IMG/VR virus record: IMGVR_UViG_3300023210_000011 | Location: 1-64,000 of that record | Direction: 5' to 3' (one strand) | Length of the DNA stretch: 64,000 bases | Source: a virus | Shown: piece by piece, positions 29,058 to 44,052 of the stretch | Layout of the letters: each line of letters opens with the position of its first letter | Numbering within the stretch: position 1 is the stretch's first letter | Notes under the pieces: generated by a model | Databases searched by the model: none | Told to the model about the DNA's origin: nothing | The model's input: only the letters and a program-made list of their open reading frames with translations | Position numbers and translations under genes: made by a program

Positions 29058-29460
29058 TGGTGGACCTGGTGGGAGTCGAACCCACGTCCGCAGCATCATT
29101 CCTCAGTCCGTTCGCTACATCCCCGTACTTGACCCAGCGGGGCGGGTGTCCCAGGTGGCTTCCCCTGGCTCCAGTTGTCCTTCACGCGAGGCTCTAAAGG
29201 CCTCGCCGCATTCCAGCCCGCTGAGCAACTTCCTCTCTCTTGAGCTTGCGAAGTCTCGTTTTACACCTGGTGAAGCTCGACCAGCTTCCTCACCAAGCAC
29301 CGGGGCTCACGGAGTCCCCGGACTTCTCTCACGCGGCCGCGGCCACGGGAGCGAAGTGGTTGTTGTTGTTGGCAATTGTCGTTTGCCTCACCGTTAGGCC
29401 GGTGAGCACGCCGCAGCGCGAACTTTCGTGCAGATACCCCGTCGAAACCGTTTCAGGCCC
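29058..29460 (-). ncRNA. ssrA: Transfer-messenger RNA (tmRNA)
   Basis: The 5' end GGGCCTGAAACGGTTTCGACGG and the 3' end GGACGTGGGTTCGACTCCC...CAGGTCCACCA match the tmRNA tRNA-like domain; GGGCCTG pairs with CAGGTCC (one G-U) and CCA is encoded. A PK1-like stem CTCACCG/CGGTGAG lies before the tag reading frame. The best tag, from GCC at 29,373 to TGA at 29,329, is ANNNNHFAPVAAAA (14 residues). tmRNA rescues stalled ribosomes and marks products for proteolysis. Phage copies are known mainly in large phages. Tag start is inferred. Confidence 0.9.
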
Positions 29461-35695: not shown

Positions 35696-36229
35696 ATGTT
35701 CGCCCCCTATATGACTCGCTCGAAGAGCCTCGAGATGATCGAGGAGGAAAGCAGCGAGGACGGGCTGGCCCACAAGGTCACCTTTCGCGTCACAGATCTC
35801 ACTGCGTGGAACTCGCAGCTGGTCGATGTCCTGAAGTTCGCGGAGGACGAGGAAGACTACGTCTTGTCCGTGCGCAAGGAGTACTACGTCCTGGACGGCG
35901 CTCCTCGATTCGTCTGGAACATGATGATCTGGGGCGACTACGCCTCTGCTGCTCGAGATCTCGGTCCTCTGATGCAGATCGTTCCGCAAAGGGCGTCGCC
36001 CCCGGCACCCGCGGAGAAGGCGGCGGCCCCCGCTGCGCAGCGAGGCCGTGCATCGATCCTGGCCGTCCGGAAGATCGGCGTAGAGGATGACGGCACCACT
36101 CGGGTCGTGAAGAAAGTGCGGCTGCCGCACCGTCGCGGAAACCGCGACAACCCCGGAGAGGGGATCACCAAGAAGATGGGAGACAAGCGCATGGGCGCCT
36201 ATGTGTCTACTGCCAGTGGAGCGATCTGA
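35696..36229 (+). CDS. Hypothetical protein, 177 aa
   Basis: MFAPYMTRSKSLEMIEEES start. A folded N-terminal domain (VTFRVTDLTAWNSQLVDVL, EEDYVLSVRKEYYVL), an Ala/Pro linker and a basic C-terminus (TTRVVKKVRLPHRRGN). Its stop overlaps the next ATG region. Function unknown. Confidence 0.55.
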   Translation: MFAPYMTRSKSLEMIEEESSEDGLAHKVTFRVTDLTAWNSQLVDVLKFAEDEEDYVLSVRKEYYVLDGAPRFVWNMMIWGDYASAARDLGPLMQIVPQRASPPAPAEKAAAPAAQRGRASILAVRKIGVEDDGTTRVVKKVRLPHRRGNRDNPGEGITKKMGDKRMGAYVSTASGAI

Positions 36230-36873
36230 TGGACATGAATCTCGCCACCCGCCGCTTCCACGCGAAGCTGGCGCAAGAGCAGGAAGCGCACGCAGCCGAG
36301 ATGGCCAAGCGCGCCAAGTACAAGATTCAGATCTGGTTCCGCTCCGACCGGTCCCTGCATCGTCCGATGACCTTCTCGATGTCCTTCTGGGAGTCTGGGA
36401 AGCGTCTGCACGGAGGAGGGGACGAGCTCCTCTTCATCTGTCGTCGGCACGCCGACGCCCCCAAGATCTCCCCCTTCGAGATGGCCAACGCCGCCAAGAA
36501 GAAGGGAAGCGACACGGGGTGTGGGGGGTTGATCTCCGGAGACAGCATCAGCCCAGAGGGGATCGTGGTCTGCCCCCACTGCTTCCTCCAGCACCGCACG
36601 GAGCAGATCGGGGACTCGATCTTCTACAGGGTCCAGGTGGGCCAGGCTGCGAAGATCCTCGCGGACTGGTGGCGCAAGGTCGGCAGCAACGCTGACATCT
36701 ACGCCAAGTACAGTCCCGAAGATCCACGTACGGTTATGATGAGCCGTACCTACTCTCCCCGCAAGGCGCGGGAGAGGAAGGGCCTGACCATCTACCCCCT
36801 GGCCAACATCCTCAAGGACACCCTCAACGGTGCGTCCCTCGAGTCCAGGATGAGGGCCTTCATCACGGCGTGA
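36229..36873 (+). CDS. Hypothetical protein, 214 aa
   Basis: Charged helical N-terminus (FHAKLAQEQEAHAAEMAKR), a beta-rich body with CPHC (VVCPHCFLQHRTEQ) and one further cysteine pair, suggesting a zinc ribbon. The C-terminus RERKGLTIYPLANILKDTL is helical. No family recognised. Confidence 0.55.
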   Translation: MDMNLATRRFHAKLAQEQEAHAAEMAKRAKYKIQIWFRSDRSLHRPMTFSMSFWESGKRLHGGGDELLFICRRHADAPKISPFEMANAAKKKGSDTGCGGLISGDSISPEGIVVCPHCFLQHRTEQIGDSIFYRVQVGQAAKILADWWRKVGSNADIYAKYSPEDPRTVMMSRTYSPRKARERKGLTIYPLANILKDTLNGASLESRMRAFITA

Positions 36874-36876
36874 GAC

Positions 36877-39753
36877 ATGGACCACTTCTACCCGGAGTTC
36901 GAAAAGGAGGCGGACCTCGCCTCCTTCCTCGCCCCGGTAACGGAGAGAATCCAGGGCTTCTTCCAGTCCAAGGAGAAGAAGCGCGCGGCTCGCCGGGTGG
37001 AGGGGTTCCACAAGACGGAAGACAAGGACTGGGACGGGTTCACCGACCAGACTTCCCGCAAGAGCTTCGTCAAGCAGCTGGGGTCGGACACGCGCTCCGA
37101 TCCCAAGCTCCTGCAGTACGCCGACAACATGAACCGCCTCAAGACGGGCAAGCAGGTCGGAGAGGTCCAGGGAAGCCGGGGCACCTACAAGATCGTGAAG
37201 CTGCGGGGCCAGGATCGACTGGGGTGCTCCTGCAACGACTGGCGCTACAAGAAGTCCGTCGCGCAGCCTGGTGAGCAGGTGGACTGCAAGCACATCCGGC
37301 AGTTTCAGCAGCTGAAGGTTGCGGGTGTGAAGAAGCTCGAGCCCTCGCAGGGCGAGCGGGCTGAGTGGGAAAAGCGGGTAGCGCAGGCTGCGCTCTCGGG
37401 CGGGGACGGCGCCTCTCTGATGAAGACGGAAGAGGGCTTCGCAGCCTACACGCACCGCTCCCGTTCGAAGTTCTACCCAAGCCCCGCCTCCATTCCTCTT
37501 GGGAAGATCCGCTCCGTCGCGAAGACGGCGTCCTACCGCGAGGGCGGATCTTTCACGCACGACGGGCAGAAGTACTCTCTTGACGCCGCACTTCGATCCG
37601 CGGAGTCTCGCCCAGCCCTGCAGTTCTCGGTGGACGAGCTCAAGTGGGTGCTTCAGCATGACCGCCCCGACCCTTCGCGGGTACGAGCGGCAGACCTGCG
37701 TGCCCCTCTCTTGCTCGCACCCGACCGCAGGGGGCGGTGGACAGTCATTGATGGGCTGCACCGGCTCGCAAAGGCCGTGCGCGCAGGGAAAGACTCGGTC
37801 CCGGTCAAGATCTTGGCGCTGAGTGAGCTCCAGAAGACGGCCGCAGCAGTCACCTCCACGCTCAAGCCGCACCAGGAGCGGGTGCTGCGCAAGCTCGAGG
37901 ACAGCGACGGAGTCATCGTCGCGCACCGCGTAGGCGCCGGGAAGACGCTGACATCGATCGCCGCGGGCGTAGCGAGTGGCCGTCCCATGGAGGTCATCAC
38001 CCCTGCCTCCCTGACCAAGAACTACGAGAAGGAGCTCAAGAAGCACGTGAAGGGTGAGGTGAAGGCTCGTATCAGCTCCTACGAGAAGGCTGTACGGCGC
38101 GGAGCCAAAGAAGGGGAAGACAGCGTCGAGCCGGGATCTTTCCTGGTGCTCGACGAGGCGCACCGGCTGCGGAACGGAGGGACGCTAACCTCGAAGACCC
38201 TCCGTCCCGCGGCGCTGGAGGCCCACAAGCGGCTCCTCCTCACAGGCACCACGCTCTACAACCGCCCCTCTGATGTGGGGCCCCTGGCGAACGTGGCGGC
38301 GGGAGAGACAGTGCTCCCAGCGGACCCCACCAGGTTCGATCAGAAGTTCATCCAGGAGTCCGAGGTGTCCCCCGGGCTCTGGAACAGGCTGCGAGGGGTG
38401 AAGCCCGGTCTGCGGAAAGATCTGAAGAACGCCTCTCTTCTCCGCAAGGCGCTGTCAGGGCGCATTGATGTCCACTCAGAGGCATCGGCGGAGGACTTCC
38501 CTGAGCAGATCGAAGAGCGGATCGCAGTTCCGATGTCTCCGAAGCAGGAGCAGGTCTACGAGGCCGTGATGGGTGCCGCCCCGGCCCATGTGCGGAGGAA
38601 GATCCGCGCAGGGCTCCCGCCGTCGAAGCAGGAGTCCCGAATGTTGAACGCATTCACTACTGCAGGCCGGCAGGCTTCCCTCTCTCCGCGCCCCTATGTC
38701 GACGACATGACGAACGCGCAGGAGGCGGAGAACACCCCCAAGATCCAAGAGGCTGCGCGGCGGCTCCTGGACGCGCGGAAGACGGATCGAAGGTTCCGGG
38801 GGGTGGTGTACTCGAACTACATCGAGGCGGGCCTGAAGCCCTACGAGCGTGCCCTGAAGAGGCGGAAGATCAAGTTCAACACCCTCACGGGCAAGCTCAA
38901 CGCCAAGCAGAAAGCCCGCATGGTGGATGAGTACAACTCGGGGCAGACGCCCATCCTCCTCGTCTCGAGCTCGGGGACTGAGGGGCTGGACCTGAAGGGC
39001 ACGAAGATGGTCCAGGTCTTGGAGCCGCACTGGAACAACTCCAAGATCGACCAGGTGATTGGACGAGGAGTCCGGTACCAGAGCCACGCCCACCTCCCGA
39101 AGAAGGAGCGCAAGGTTCAGGTCCAGCGGTTCTACTCATCGCTGCCGAAGGGCTTCTTGGGCCGGAACAAGGGCAAGTCCACTGAGCAGTGGATCCAAGA
39201 TCGGGCGGACGACAAGACGCGCCTCTCCAACCAGCTGCGGGAAGTGTTCCAGCAGGCGAGTGACGAGCCCCCGCAGTCGCTACAGGGCCATGTGGCTCAG
39301 CGCATCCAGGAGCGCGCCCCCGGTTCCGGGTACGAGGTCGCCAAGATCCAGGCGCGCATCCCCAAGATGACGCTCCGCCCAGGAAAGACCTACCATGTGC
39401 CGCTCGCCAGAGGGCGGGGCTGGGTCGTGATAGGCGACATCGGTGGCCGGCACGTCGTGAAGACGGTCTTCGGTCCCAATATGCGGCCCCCGGGAGAGCG
39501 CGTGCTGGTCAAGCAGGCCCGCGCACCCCGCGACTACAAGAAGGAGTATGCGGAGTACCACGCCACCCCAGAGCAGCGGAAGAACCGTAGCCTCCGGAAC
39601 CAGGCCCGCCGGAAGGTGGGGCTAAGCAAAGGTGATCCCCGAGAGGTAGACCACAAGACTCCGCTCTCTCGTGGCGGCGGAAATGGCTCTGGGAACCTGC
39701 GTGCAGTTAGCTTCGAGCTCAACCGCAAAAAGTCAAACGGAGAAGCACGATGA
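36877..39753 (+). CDS. SWIM / ParB-like / SNF2 helicase / HNH nuclease fusion
   Basis: 958 residues. An N-terminal segment ends in LGCSCNDWRYKKS...VDCKH (residues 117-139), a SWIM-type C-x-C...C-x-H zinc motif. A ParB/Srx-like domain (about residues 265-310, with DGLHRLAKAV) follows. The SNF2-type superfamily 2 motor has HRVGAGKT (about 351), LVLDEAHRL (about 425), LLLTGTTLYN and IDQVIGRGVRYQS. The last 40 residues (EVDHKTPLSRGGGNGSGNL) are an HNH nuclease. The motor plus nuclease suggests DNA translocation and cutting. N-terminus FYPEFEKEA resembles a shared motif of this module. Confidence 0.8.
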   Translation: MDHFYPEFEKEADLASFLAPVTERIQGFFQSKEKKRAARRVEGFHKTEDKDWDGFTDQTSRKSFVKQLGSDTRSDPKLLQYADNMNRLKTGKQVGEVQGSRGTYKIVKLRGQDRLGCSCNDWRYKKSVAQPGEQVDCKHIRQFQQLKVAGVKKLEPSQGERAEWEKRVAQAALSGGDGASLMKTEEGFAAYTHRSRSKFYPSPASIPLGKIRSVAKTASYREGGSFTHDGQKYSLDAALRSAESRPALQFSVDELKWVLQHDRPDPSRVRAADLRAPLLLAPDRRGRWTVIDGLHRLAKAVRAGKDSVPVKILALSELQKTAAAVTSTLKPHQERVLRKLEDSDGVIVAHRVGAGKTLTSIAAGVASGRPMEVITPASLTKNYEKELKKHVKGEVKARISSYEKAVRRGAKEGEDSVEPGSFLVLDEAHRLRNGGTLTSKTLRPAALEAHKRLLLTGTTLYNRPSDVGPLANVAAGETVLPADPTRFDQKFIQESEVSPGLWNRLRGVKPGLRKDLKNASLLRKALSGRIDVHSEASAEDFPEQIEERIAVPMSPKQEQVYEAVMGAAPAHVRRKIRAGLPPSKQESRMLNAFTTAGRQASLSPRPYVDDMTNAQEAENTPKIQEAARRLLDARKTDRRFRGVVYSNYIEAGLKPYERALKRRKIKFNTLTGKLNAKQKARMVDEYNSGQTPILLVSSSGTEGLDLKGTKMVQVLEPHWNNSKIDQVIGRGVRYQSHAHLPKKERKVQVQRFYSSLPKGFLGRNKGKSTEQWIQDRADDKTRLSNQLREVFQQASDEPPQSLQGHVAQRIQERAPGSGYEVAKIQARIPKMTLRPGKTYHVPLARGRGWVVIGDIGGRHVVKTVFGPNMRPPGERVLVKQARAPRDYKKEYAEYHATPEQRKNRSLRNQARRKVGLSKGDPREVDHKTPLSRGGGNGSGNLRAVSFELNRKKSNGEAR

Positions 39754-40688
39754 AACCCGACTACCGAGGCCTGCGGGCGCACATGCAGAAGGCGAGTCCG
39801 TTCCAGGAAAAGGCGGGCGGCATCCATGGGAGCCCTCATGGAGGCCACAGCCGAGAGGCCCTCCTCGCAGAGCAGGAGCGGGTACGCAGGCAGTTGGCCG
39901 GGGAGAAGGTAGCGGGCGCCCGAGAAGCTCTGCGAGTTTTTCTCACGGGAAAGGTTCCGGTCCGCCACGGAACTACCAAGGCGGTGGCAAAGAAGATTCG
40001 CGCCACCGGCCTGCGTCCGCAGGGGTCAGCAGGCATCTCTTCGTTGCTCGCCGTTCCCGGAGAAGAAGGACTTGCCTTCACTACGAGGTCGAAGGCCATG
40101 GCGAAAAACTACGCTCAGCAGGCTGAAGGCCTCGCCAAGGCGAAGGCGCTGAGGAGGCACATACCGATTGAGCAGAAGCGGCAGATCCTGAACTCCCCTG
40201 CGGTGCAGGGCATGCAGCGCCAGTTCGAGGCTACCGGAAGCTCTGCGAATATGGGAGACGTGTTGCAGGCTCAAGCGGGCAGGGCCCTATCCTTCTTCGG
40301 CAAGGGAGATGTTGTGGAGGCCCGCGTTCCCTGGAAGAAGCTGCGGGCGCGCGAGGCTCCTGGGAGGGAACTCCATGCACCCGTGGTAAAGAGCCAGAGG
40401 GAGGCGCTGTCCCAGATTCACCCCTCTCTCGAACAAGTCCCGGCCGCAGCGTTCATGACTGATGTTCCTGTTCGCGGGGGCTTGCCGGCTGAGTACATCA
40501 AAGGGTCTCCCTCGTATATGCGCACGAGTGTGGGCAGCCTCCGTGACCACCTTCGGAGCATCAAGGACGAGCCCAAGGCCTTTGGCAAGGAGGTTCTTCG
40601 CGCCTACGCCGGCATGCAGCATCGTCCCTCGACTCTGCTGGGCCAGGATCCTGCTCTCCGCAGAAGGCTCCTCGGAGTAGCCGAGTAG
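39750..40688 (+). CDS. Putative ADP-ribosyltransferase-fold protein, 312 aa
   Basis: VPVRHGTTKAVAKKIRATG, LAFTTRSKAMAKNYAQQA and VVEARVPWKKL follow the order of ADP-ribosyltransferase-fold proteins: H/R-G-T-x strand, G-(L/V)-x-F/Y-T strand with A-x-x-Y/YA helix, and a final V-V-(E/x)-x-x-V-P strand with glutamate. T4 packages such an enzyme (Alt) to modify host proteins at infection. It overlaps the helicase-nuclease by four bases, so the two are coupled. Confidence 0.5.
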   Translation: MKPDYRGLRAHMQKASPFQEKAGGIHGSPHGGHSREALLAEQERVRRQLAGEKVAGAREALRVFLTGKVPVRHGTTKAVAKKIRATGLRPQGSAGISSLLAVPGEEGLAFTTRSKAMAKNYAQQAEGLAKAKALRRHIPIEQKRQILNSPAVQGMQRQFEATGSSANMGDVLQAQAGRALSFFGKGDVVEARVPWKKLRAREAPGRELHAPVVKSQREALSQIHPSLEQVPAAAFMTDVPVRGGLPAEYIKGSPSYMRTSVGSLRDHLRSIKDEPKAFGKEVLRAYAGMQHRPSTLLGQDPALRRRLLGVAE

Positions 40689-40886: not shown

Positions 40887-41150
40887 ATGCCGCCACAGAA
40901 GAAGACCATTGCGGTCCTGCTGACGCAGGTGACGGAGCTCCGGCAGCGTGCTGCGGTCCAGACTGCCCTCGTGCAGATCTTGCGGACCCGGTATCTGCCG
41001 AGGGATGGGGTCCCGGAGGCCCTGGCCCAGATTGACTGCGAGGGGGCACCCGTCTCTGCCGACATCATCGAGGAGATGGTGGAGGAGTTGGAGGATGTGG
41101 TGTCGGAAATCAACAAGGAAGTCCGCTCGATTCTGAGCCAGGAGGCCTGA
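40887..41150 (+). CDS. Helical hypothetical protein, 87 aa
   Basis: ATG 40887 with ACGGAGG. MPPQKKTIAVLLTQVTELR and DIIEEMVEELEDVVSEINK are helical, suggesting a coiled-coil protein. Coupled to the next gene. Function unknown. Confidence 0.5.
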   Translation: MPPQKKTIAVLLTQVTELRQRAAVQTALVQILRTRYLPRDGVPEALAQIDCEGAPVSADIIEEMVEELEDVVSEINKEVRSILSQEA

Positions 41151-42599: not shown

Positions 42600-42764
42600 C
42601 TACCGCCCGCCCCAAGGGAGGAGAGTGCCTCCCCGGATCTCGCGTTCTACGCCGCACTCACAGCGGCACCACCAGGTCACTTGGCCGTTTTTCTTTCCGT
42701 GTCTTCGAAGTACAGACCACTTCCCATAGGCGTGCCCAGTTTCATCTTTCACTTTTGCTGCCAT
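42600..42764 (-). CDS. Small zinc-binding protein, 54 aa
   Basis: ATG 42764, inside the end of the ligase gene, encodes MAAKVKDETGHAYGKWSVL followed by WWCRCECGVEREIRGGTLL. The YGKW-S/T-V...C-x-C-x-C-G pattern is common in short phage proteins and at the N-termini of HNH homing endonucleases, where it likely binds DNA. No nuclease follows it here. Confidence 0.55.
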   Translation of the reverse strand: MAAKVKDETGHAYGKWSVLRRHGKKNGQVTWWCRCECGVEREIRGGTLLPWGGR

Positions 42765-44052
42765 AGGTCAGACTCTCCTCGATGCACTCTTCTGCCTCCT
42801 TGTCGTCGCGAAATCGAACGACCCGAGGGAACTGAAGTGCGTTGGTGGCCTCCCCGTCGGCGATGAAGGTCCGGCTGGCGAATTGAATCTCTGCGACCAC
42901 AGGGAACACGCCAGGAGTGCTGAGCCAGTTCCTGTGGTCCTGGGTGAGTCCTCCTCCGCAGTCGCACAAGTAGACCAGTTCTCCGTCGGCGTCGTATTGG
43001 TGGAGGGCTACGGACCCTACCTTTCCACGGTTCTTCCCGCGGCCGTACTTGCCGACGCCCTGTTCGGGGTCCCATAGGCAGACAGCATCCAGTTCGAAGA
43101 CGGGCTTCAGCTTGCAGCAGGTGTTCGGGCGGTCGGGCTTGCCGCGCAGGTTGAAGGACTTCTCGCCGTAGGTGGAGTGCGGGTCCACGATGACGAAGCC
43201 CTCCCACCCCTGAGCGACCAGGGTGTTGCGGAGTCCCTCGACCCCCTTGTAGTCGCCTTCGATGAAGGTCTCCGGCGGATGTACGAACTGGCCGGAGAAC
43301 AGGTCCGCGTGGTCCAGGCGGAACCGGTACTGCATCTCTCCGAGCAGCTGGAGCCCGGCAGCCCAGGCCACGTCCCAGCAGATGAAGTGCAGGAACCCGG
43401 TCTTCTCCTGGATCTCGAGGGCCTTCGGAGTCAACGACTTCATCACCTTCGCGACCCGCCATCGATCATCCGCGTCAGGCCCGTTCACGATCTCGCCCAA
43501 CAGGATGGTGTTGTTCGGGATCTCGTCGTTCTCCTCGATCTCCGTGGCGATGTGGTCGAAGCGCTCGCGCCAGGTGTGCTGATCTTCGAGGTGGTGATTC
43601 GTCAGCATCCGTCGGCTGAAGAAGATCGCCTCCCCCTCGGAGTTCTTGACGATGACCATCATCTCGCCATCGTACTTCCGCACCGCCCACGCCTTCCCGT
43701 CCTCGACCATCTTCTCCATCTTCTTGTTCAGCGAGTTCTGAGGCTTGTAGAAGGACAGGTTGTCCACGATGCCGTGCTCGAAGGGGCTGTAGTCAGCGGT
43801 CTCCTCCAGCTTCGTGTCGTAGCCCTTCCGCATCTTCTTCGAGATCAGGCGATCCATCATGTTCTGCGCGTCTTGCTCAGCCGAGACCTCGTTGCTGCGC
43901 CCCGCGTGCTTGGCGGTTCCGTAGTCCGTGACCTCCTGCATCTTCCCGTCGAGCTGGCCGAAGCGCGTGTGGACCGCGTTCCCCTCGACAGCGATTTCCC
44001 AGACCCGCACAGCGCCGGTGCGCGCACGGTTATAGAGTGTGGTGTAGTTCAT
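42742..44052 (-). CDS. ATP-dependent DNA ligase with N-terminal WGR domain
   Basis: The first about 80 residues resemble a WGR domain (YNRARTGAVRVWEIAV, HTRFGQLDGKMQEV). The ligase core has the active-site lysine in VRKYDGEMM (K126), LLGEIVNGP (motif III), WEGFVIVDP (motif IV) and CKLKP (motif V). It seals nicks with ATP, forming an enzyme-AMP intermediate; WGR domains bind DNA or nicks in PARP enzymes. Start ATG 44052 follows GGAGG. First gene of its operon. Confidence 0.85.
   Translation of the reverse strand: MNYTTLYNRARTGAVRVWEIAVEGNAVHTRFGQLDGKMQEVTDYGTAKHAGRSNEVSAEQDAQNMMDRLISKKMRKGYDTKLEETADYSPFEHGIVDNLSFYKPQNSLNKKMEKMVEDGKAWAVRKYDGEMMVIVKNSEGEAIFFSRRMLTNHHLEDQHTWRERFDHIATEIEENDEIPNNTILLGEIVNGPDADDRWRVAKVMKSLTPKALEIQEKTGFLHFICWDVAWAAGLQLLGEMQYRFRLDHADLFSGQFVHPPETFIEGDYKGVEGLRNTLVAQGWEGFVIVDPHSTYGEKSFNLRGKPDRPNTCCKLKPVFELDAVCLWDPEQGVGKYGRGKNRGKVGSVALHQYDADGELVYLCDCGGGLTQDHRNWLSTPGVFPVVAEIQFASRTFIADGEATNALQFPRVVRFRDDKEAEECIEESLTYGSKSER

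Follow-up and report, generated by a model that had tools for sequence, protein, structure and literature searches.

How a phage could make use of several enzymes of unrelated biochemical activity joined in one polypeptide is the question raised by ORF A (open reading frame A). This gene lies in the window analysed here, which comprises positions 1 to 64,000 of a viral contig of 131,435 bases (G000; IMG/VR record IMGVR_UViG_3300023210_000011). Its product combines SWIM-like, ParB-like, SNF2 and HNH nuclease-like modules, and the last three bring together at least two domains of unrelated biochemical activity in a single chain. The gene overlaps by four bases (ATGA, both reading frames confirmed) with ORF B, whose product was initially described as having an ADP-ribosyltransferase (ART) fold. 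In the original prediction the two genes were suggested to encode a coupled pair of virion-delivered enzymes. From the results described below, it is likely that ORF A is a capsid-targeted polyvalent polyprotein, which the head protease would cut into separate enzymes that would be injected together with the phage RNA polymerase (RNAP). ORF A carries a motif that is enriched in capsid and scaffold-like proteins encoded by this phage.

Domain composition of ORF A

The domain string of ORF A and its overlap with ORF B, as originally described, are borne out by the reading frames and by the Pfam and PHROG searches, and the presence of homologues at 57-79% identity indicates that ORF A is not a chance reading frame. 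The SNF2 module matches SNF2-rel_dom (2e-18) and Helicase_C (3.2e-14) of Pfam, both above the cut-off, and it has two RecA lobes with intact Walker A (GAGKT) and DEAH motifs. In the AlphaFold model of the complete protein, which has a mean predicted local distance difference test score (pLDDT) of 71.9, the ATPase (about residues 327-795) is very confidently modelled, with values above 90 for most of its residues. The ParB-like region matches PHROG 17560 (residues 219-321, E 1.1e-18) and the HNH region matches PHROG 4590 (residues 885-953, 4.3e-14), with the Pfam HNH match staying below the cut-off (E 0.01). The SWIM label is a motif call made on the sequence; it stands as far as the CxC...CxH motif is concerned (approx. 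residues 117-139), which is kept in the relative L006, and not as a family assignment, given that the module has no match in Pfam. For residues 150-218 no family match was found in the PHROG search. Between the SNF2 and HNH modules there is an additional one, module C, that was missed in the first reading and that shows the order helix-helix-three strands in the AlphaFold model; no match to it was found in the PDB. This order would suggest a RelE/barnase-like RNase, a tentative resemblance. The low-confidence stretches of the model include residues 1-12 (pLDDT below 50), 107-157, 170-250, 308-320 and 874-885. No peptidase domain, zincin-like metallopeptidases included, was found in ORF A with Pfam and PHROG.

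The K-x-A signal in head genes and at the module borders

Among all the P3-x-P1 residue pairs, K-x-A is the most over-represented in the head genes of this contig (60 observed versus 20.8 expected), and it also tops the pairs in the head-gene sets of contig G003 (73 versus 25.4), phage Arash (46 versus 20.5) and Vibrio phage D69 (51 versus 22.0). It is not among the top pairs in the early genes 1-56 of this contig or in genes 1-40 of G004. In the head-type genes there is a strong enrichment of K-x-A with S or A as the next residue, and K-x-A-S was counted 28 times in 16 of these genes, for 2.3 expected. The extended signal, (L/F/I)-x-K-x-A, is strongly enriched in the head genes adjoining the gene for a head-maturation-protease homologue, g150 (124403-126340 of the 131-kb contig, E 1e-4), which has relatives in G001, G003, Arash and D69 (E 0.014 to 7e-7); the genes rich in K-x-A adjoin both g150 and the gene for the major capsid protein (PHROG 2522). 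In the capsid protein, K-x-[A/S] is located just before the conserved N-arm in 29 of the 30 contigs with scored loci (39 were searched and 35 had a capsid match), one of them having K-x-S, whereas shuffling gave a mean of 7.6 and a maximum of 15. By analogy with the A-X-E motif of phage SPN3US (PMC10052503), K-x-A is read as the putative site of the head protease, and the gene position of g150 together with the enrichment makes it the candidate enzyme. As a separate observation, residues 305-442 of the homologue encoded in G003 (g180, L090:17254-19377) match virion and DarB-like antirestriction families.

In ORF A the signal ends at residues 12, 37, 149, 218, 322, 519 and 881. Three of these sites have aligned counterparts in the relatives, namely site 149, which closes the SWIM-like module, site 322, which precedes SNF2, and site 881, which follows module C; for instance, the predicted cut QLKVA149/G aligns with MSKTA144/A in L006 (the slash marks the cut). 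Sites 218 and 322 flank the ParB match. In three proteins of the ORF A family, K-x-A is found no more than 12 residues away from 11 of the 14 module borders, a number reached in none of 10000 random draws (chance of 0.15 per border). A similar picture was obtained for the SNF2 relatives in general, since 42 out of 59 carry K-x-A within 30 residues before the ATPase (mean of the shuffles 15.1, maximum 25), and the same test gave 10 for R-x-A and 10 for K-x-S. These 59 sequences come from 78 SNF2 loci, after dropping 15 in which the GKT motif (5) or the Q motif (10) was not found and 4 duplicates; several of the ten loci dropped for the Q motif visibly carry leaders and several do not.

N-terminal leaders

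ORF A begins with the peptide MDHFYPEFEKEA, which includes FYPEFEKEA. A search with the pattern F-x-x-[ED]-[LFMIY]-x-K-x-[AS], allowing F, Y, W or L in the first position, revealed that, in G000-G003, this pattern has a 6- to 13-fold higher density in the first 40 residues of the proteins than in their remaining parts. In G036 the pattern is 2.7 times denser N-terminally, with one match against one, and G004 has no match. The contig G060 has no N-terminal match to this pattern; its leader is of the NKYLEKIA type (MNKYLEKIA), which was found on seven of its proteins, including the ART relative of ORF B, and similar leaders are present on five G036 proteins, including that of the SNF2 gene (MNKYLVKIA). 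In both genomes, one N-terminal peptide recurs on unrelated genes. Full copies of the leaders are also found inside fusions, i.e., FVDELQKLA before SNF2 in L110, FVGELDKIA before InPase in L105, and YLEKIA precedes SNF2 in the fusions with LigD_N. The simplest reading of these sequences would be that leader-tagged cargo genes fuse and that their leaders turn into internal cut sites. A very short leader-related sequence, M[DN]K[ILV]AAY, starts several otherwise different genes (g129 and g141 in G000; g27, g28, g32 and g82 in G001).

An even chance can be given to a more general proposal, according to which a clade of large phages with its own beta-beta' RNAP would use a head-import tag (of the F-x-x-E-[L/F]-x-K-x-A or NKYLEKIA type), removed by the protease, to make enzymes injected cargo; fused tagged genes would be recut, and ORF A would be one such string.

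Homologues in virions

The presence of homologues of ORF A in virions has been published. In purified virions of Arash, 1148 spectra and 38 unique peptides were assigned to Gp217, which is one of the most abundant virion proteins, alongside the RNAP proteins Gp206 and Gp216 (PMC10585845). Gp217 is a SNF2 homologue with 38.6% identity. Likewise, a stand-alone ParB homologue in phage PA5oct is annotated as 'structural protein, ESI-MS/MS'. These data, together with the leader and the cut signals of ORF A, favour by homology the virion delivery that was originally suggested; for a role in packaging, also suggested then, no supporting evidence was found.

Possible connection with the phage RNA polymerase

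The contig encodes a fused beta-beta' RNAP of 2108 residues (g128), located outside the window at 101896-108222 of G000 (L004:5896-12222). It is worth recording that this multi-subunit type of enzyme is found in a contig of only 131 kb. RNAP (PF00562) was detected in 40 of 50 contigs with the SNF2 family, which include all 31 contigs of at least 100 kb and 9 of the 19 shorter ones. It is encoded directly upstream of SNF2 in Arash and in 6 of the 78 loci; in the former, Gp216 corresponds by alignment to the C-terminal part of beta', and there is a one-base overlap between its gene and that of SNF2. The matches of the SNF2 module, in sequence and in structure, include NPH-I of poxviruses (6rfl_Y) and other transcription ATPases of large DNA viruses. 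Transcription ATPases and SNF2-like helicases of large eukaryotic DNA viruses are the nearest viral structure models after one entry, which we take to be a protein of phage PA-SR01. This phage has a SNF2 relative without RNAP, and in D69 the interval from the RNAP part to the next large gene contains no gene of SNF2 size. A role similar to that of RapA is not a new idea, having already been proposed for jumbo-phage Snf2 proteins encoded near RNAP genes (PMC7824862). As in those cases and in poxvirus NPH-I, a SNF2-type ATPase is tied here to a multi-subunit RNAP; unlike them, the ATPase of the lineage of the window is embedded in a polyprotein and encoded away from the RNAP gene.

Proposed mechanism and alternative explanations

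In the proposed mechanism, the leader FYPEFEKEA would bring ORF A into the prohead, where the head-maturation protease g150 would cut after (L/F/I)-x-K-x-A; this would remove the leader and release the SWIM-like module, the ParB-like nuclease, the HNH nuclease, and the SNF2 ATPase together with module C. The freed enzymes would then be injected with the DNA and the fused RNAP g128. The SNF2 ATPase would most likely serve this RNAP on the incoming DNA, as RapA does with the bacterial RNAP and NPH-I with that of poxviruses. The swappable ParB and HNH modules, and the ART module of ORF B, would be host-directed or anti-defence accessories, with a possible role in host takeover or counter-defence.

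Several observations speak against this mechanism. Seventeen of the 59 SNF2 relatives do not have K-x-A before the ATPase, and ORF A has lost the site between SNF2 and module C that L006 and L007 keep. Site 519 falls within the folded ATPase; this site and site 37, which lies in a helix, are probably not used. Gp217 of Arash has no leader, so its packaging needs none, and G004 has a SNF2 relative and no excess of K-x-A. The border and leader counts come from related proteins and are not independent. The co-occurrence of SNF2 and RNAP was counted in contigs with the SNF2 family, and this link may be due to the shared descent of one phage clade. Finally, the published peptide coverage of Arash gives no support for cutting. 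This comparison included the 55 proteins with at least 7 unique peptides, out of 114 translated (116 in the table); 4 of 8 well-detected proteins bearing an N-terminal site have 100% coverage, and the coverage of Gp97, Gp100, Gp221, Gp223 and Gp242 is above the maximum that removal of the leader would allow. Only gp222 and gp226 are clearly below this maximum (86.6% versus 90.6% for the capsid protein Gp226), and gp206 is within the tolerance of 0.3 points. The coverage is nevertheless not decisive, because the values in the table look inflated, e.g., Gp183, with 965 residues, appears with 89.7% from 2 unique peptides.

These coverage data, and the fact that cutting is deduced from the signals, would agree with ORF A being an ordinary polyvalent protein that is injected whole, the K-x-A at its borders being part of flexible K/A-rich linkers, and SNF2, ParB and HNH-type domains have indeed been described in polyvalent proteins (PMC5512222). 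This explanation is nonetheless unlikely, since the enrichment is specific for K-x-A and is not comparable for R-x-A, K-x-S or other pairs, and since the signal occupies the same aligned place in the capsid N-terminus in all but one of the contigs scored and matches the shared N-terminal leader. It is quite improbable that ORF A is an intracellular enzyme for replication, repair or remodelling of the phage DNA that never enters the virion. Such a function would fit with the recombination role proposed for jumbo-phage Snf2 helicases (PMC7824862) and with the frequent occurrence of SNF2 and HNH domains in DNA metabolism, but the abundance of the Arash homologue in virions argues against it, as do the leader and the cut signals that ORF A has in common with capsid and scaffold-like genes, and the location of ORF A in a variable slot that it shares with other leader-bearing proteins. 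Slightly less probable again is that the leader targets another compartment, such as the membrane or a replication factory, where a different protease would cut. The leaders do recur on many small genes without known location, and the protease was assigned from gene position and enrichment; against this, K-x-A is found ahead of the N-arm in the major capsid protein and is repeated in the genes beside the head-maturation protease.

Module swapping and the variable slot

The modular nature of the proposed head-targeted polyprotein is also evident from its relatives. The SNF2 family is encoded in 225 viral contigs, from which 80 loci were kept, and most of its members have a single domain. The close relatives L006 (1129 residues) and L007 (895-907 residues, depending on the start chosen) share with ORF A the SNF2 core, module C and HNH, and the modules between the shared borders differ. 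In L006 the ParB place is taken by a different module, nucleotidyltransferase-like by eye, and there is an insert of the C92 papain-like family (29.0 bits, cut-off 27); L007 has a long linker. Other forms of domain interchange in the SNF2 family are the presence of InPase (PF18823, E 1e-25 to 7e-30) before or after SNF2, and of LigD_N before it. The HNH module of ORF A is a short free-standing gene in many contigs and may come from a mobile nuclease; sequences with 39-60% identity to it (RDYKKEYAEYH...) were observed in 50 viral loci (L010-L059), mostly as free-standing ORFs. When the ParB module alone was compared with the viral contigs, 51 pattern matches were obtained, none of them a relative.

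The slot that contains ORF A is bordered by two conserved genes (Table 1) and its gene content differs in each relative. In the two nearest ones, the place of ORF B is taken by a zinc-ribbon gene, which likewise overlaps by four bases, and genes of the ORF B type are located elsewhere in other phages. The gene-neighbourhood survey thus does not sustain the coupled pair, and a conserved unit formed by ORF A and ORF B was rejected. The same slot in G001 contains g83 (L074:12115-14634), which encodes a protein of 839 residues with two HExxH-type segments (HEMGH and HELGH) and several K-x-A sites; its Pfam matches to reprolysin are weak and below the cut-off.

The product of ORF B

ORF B itself gave no family match in Pfam and PHROG, and when it was used as a query no relative was returned from the viral contig and phage sets. 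It aligns over 218 columns with its relative in G060 (E 2e-9), which shows weak matches to Tpt1/KptA (E 0.001) and PARP (E 0.012). Given that both of these matches are below the cut-off, the ART fold attributed to ORF B in the original prediction can be taken as likely, on weak matches, and not as proven; the AlphaFold model of ORF B is poor (pLDDT 40.8) and unusable. The coding score of this gene is low for its length (38.7, versus 314 for ORF A, with a codon-based gene caller), which may reflect a recent acquisition.

Comparison with known systems

ORF A is a real, unusual member of the polyvalent-protein kind. Polyvalent proteins are multi-domain proteins, predicted to be injected, that contain SNF2, DdrB-like ParB, ART, InPase and nucleotidyltransferase domains (Iyer et al. 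2017, PMC5512222), the same types of modules that are found in the relatives of ORF A. Therefore, the initial statement that no standard phage protein has this domain order is correct for the exact order, and the kind is known. According to the same study (PMC5512222), the zincin-like metallopeptidase is the most frequent polyvalent domain (about 36% of the set) and is not obligatory, and processing is ascribed mainly to built-in zincin-like peptidases, and in few cases to assemblin-like ones. ORF A differs in that its predicted cuts use the K-x-A head-maturation signal of the clade and in that no peptidase was found inside it. The head proteins of the giant phage SPN3US include a virion RNAP, and its protease gp245 recognizes A-X-E at P3 and P1, with Ser preferred at P1' (PMC10052503); the motif proposed here is likewise read at P3 and P1, with Ser or Ala frequent at P1'. 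Thirteen of the 14 cuts mapped in SPN3US remove N-terminal propeptides and the other is a self-cleavage; the available part of that article (PMC10052503) reports no cuts that separate the enzyme modules of a single cargo protein, such as those predicted in ORF A.

What is believed to be new is the proposed use of a head-maturation signal both as an address leader and as cut sites between swappable modules, across a large-phage clade. In a literature search with most subscription journals outside its coverage, no report of enzyme polyproteins cut by the head protease was found. In phage T4, Alt and the internal proteins have an N-terminal leader, the capsid targeting sequence, that is removed, and the cargo consists of single proteins and is not known to include enzyme strings. 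Alt is a head-packaged ART (PMC5512222), so that an ART and a removable leader are common to both systems; the leader of ORF A and the protease motif are different.

If the proposal is correct, the capsid protease would mature the shell and would also process an injected multi-enzyme cargo, and a SNF2 ATPase would be tied to virion transcription in phages, as it is in poxviruses. A short readable tag would predict which phage proteins enter the host, making the injected cargo of large phages a sequence query and the virion cargo of these phages readable from sequence alone. The tag could also be used for loading enzymes into phage heads in the laboratory.

Coordinates and neighbouring genes

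Table 1. Features of the ORF A locus (positions in the window; a slash marks a predicted cut).
Feature	Position	Strand	Basis
Conserved gene, left border of the variable cargo slot	36229..36873	+	64% identical in G001
ORF A, putative cargo polyprotein (SWIM-like/ParB-like/SNF2/module C/HNH), 958 residues	36877..39753	+	ORF, Pfam, PHROG, coding score 314, model
N-terminal leader MDHFYPEFEKEA, predicted cut after A12	36877..36912	+	Pattern F-x-x-E-[LF]-x-K-x-A
Module with SWIM-like CxC...CxH motif, residues 13-149	36913..37323	+	Motif; predicted cut QLKVA149/G
Residues 150-218, low-confidence model	37324..37530	+	Family search, AlphaFold model
ParB-like module, residues 219-322	37531..37842	+	PHROG; predicted cuts VAKTA218/S and LQKTA322/A at its ends
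SNF2-family ATPase module, residues 323-795	37843..39261	+	Pfam, PHROG, structure matches, pLDDT
Module C, residues 804-881, ending at the predicted cut LVKQA881/R	39286..39519	+	Model, relatives
HNH nuclease-like module, residues 882-958	39520..39753	+	PHROG, relatives
ORF B, ART-fold-like protein, 312 residues, homology about residues 65-266	39750..40688	+	Alignment of the relative
Conserved gene, right border of the variable cargo slot	40887..41150	+	64-69% identical in G001 and G002

Near ORF B, the window contains a gene for an ATP-dependent DNA ligase (42742-44052, minus strand), which is conserved in G001, G002 and G003. A transfer-messenger RNA (tmRNA) gene was detected with ARAGORN at 29058-29460 of the minus strand, with the tag ANNNNHFAPVAAAA.

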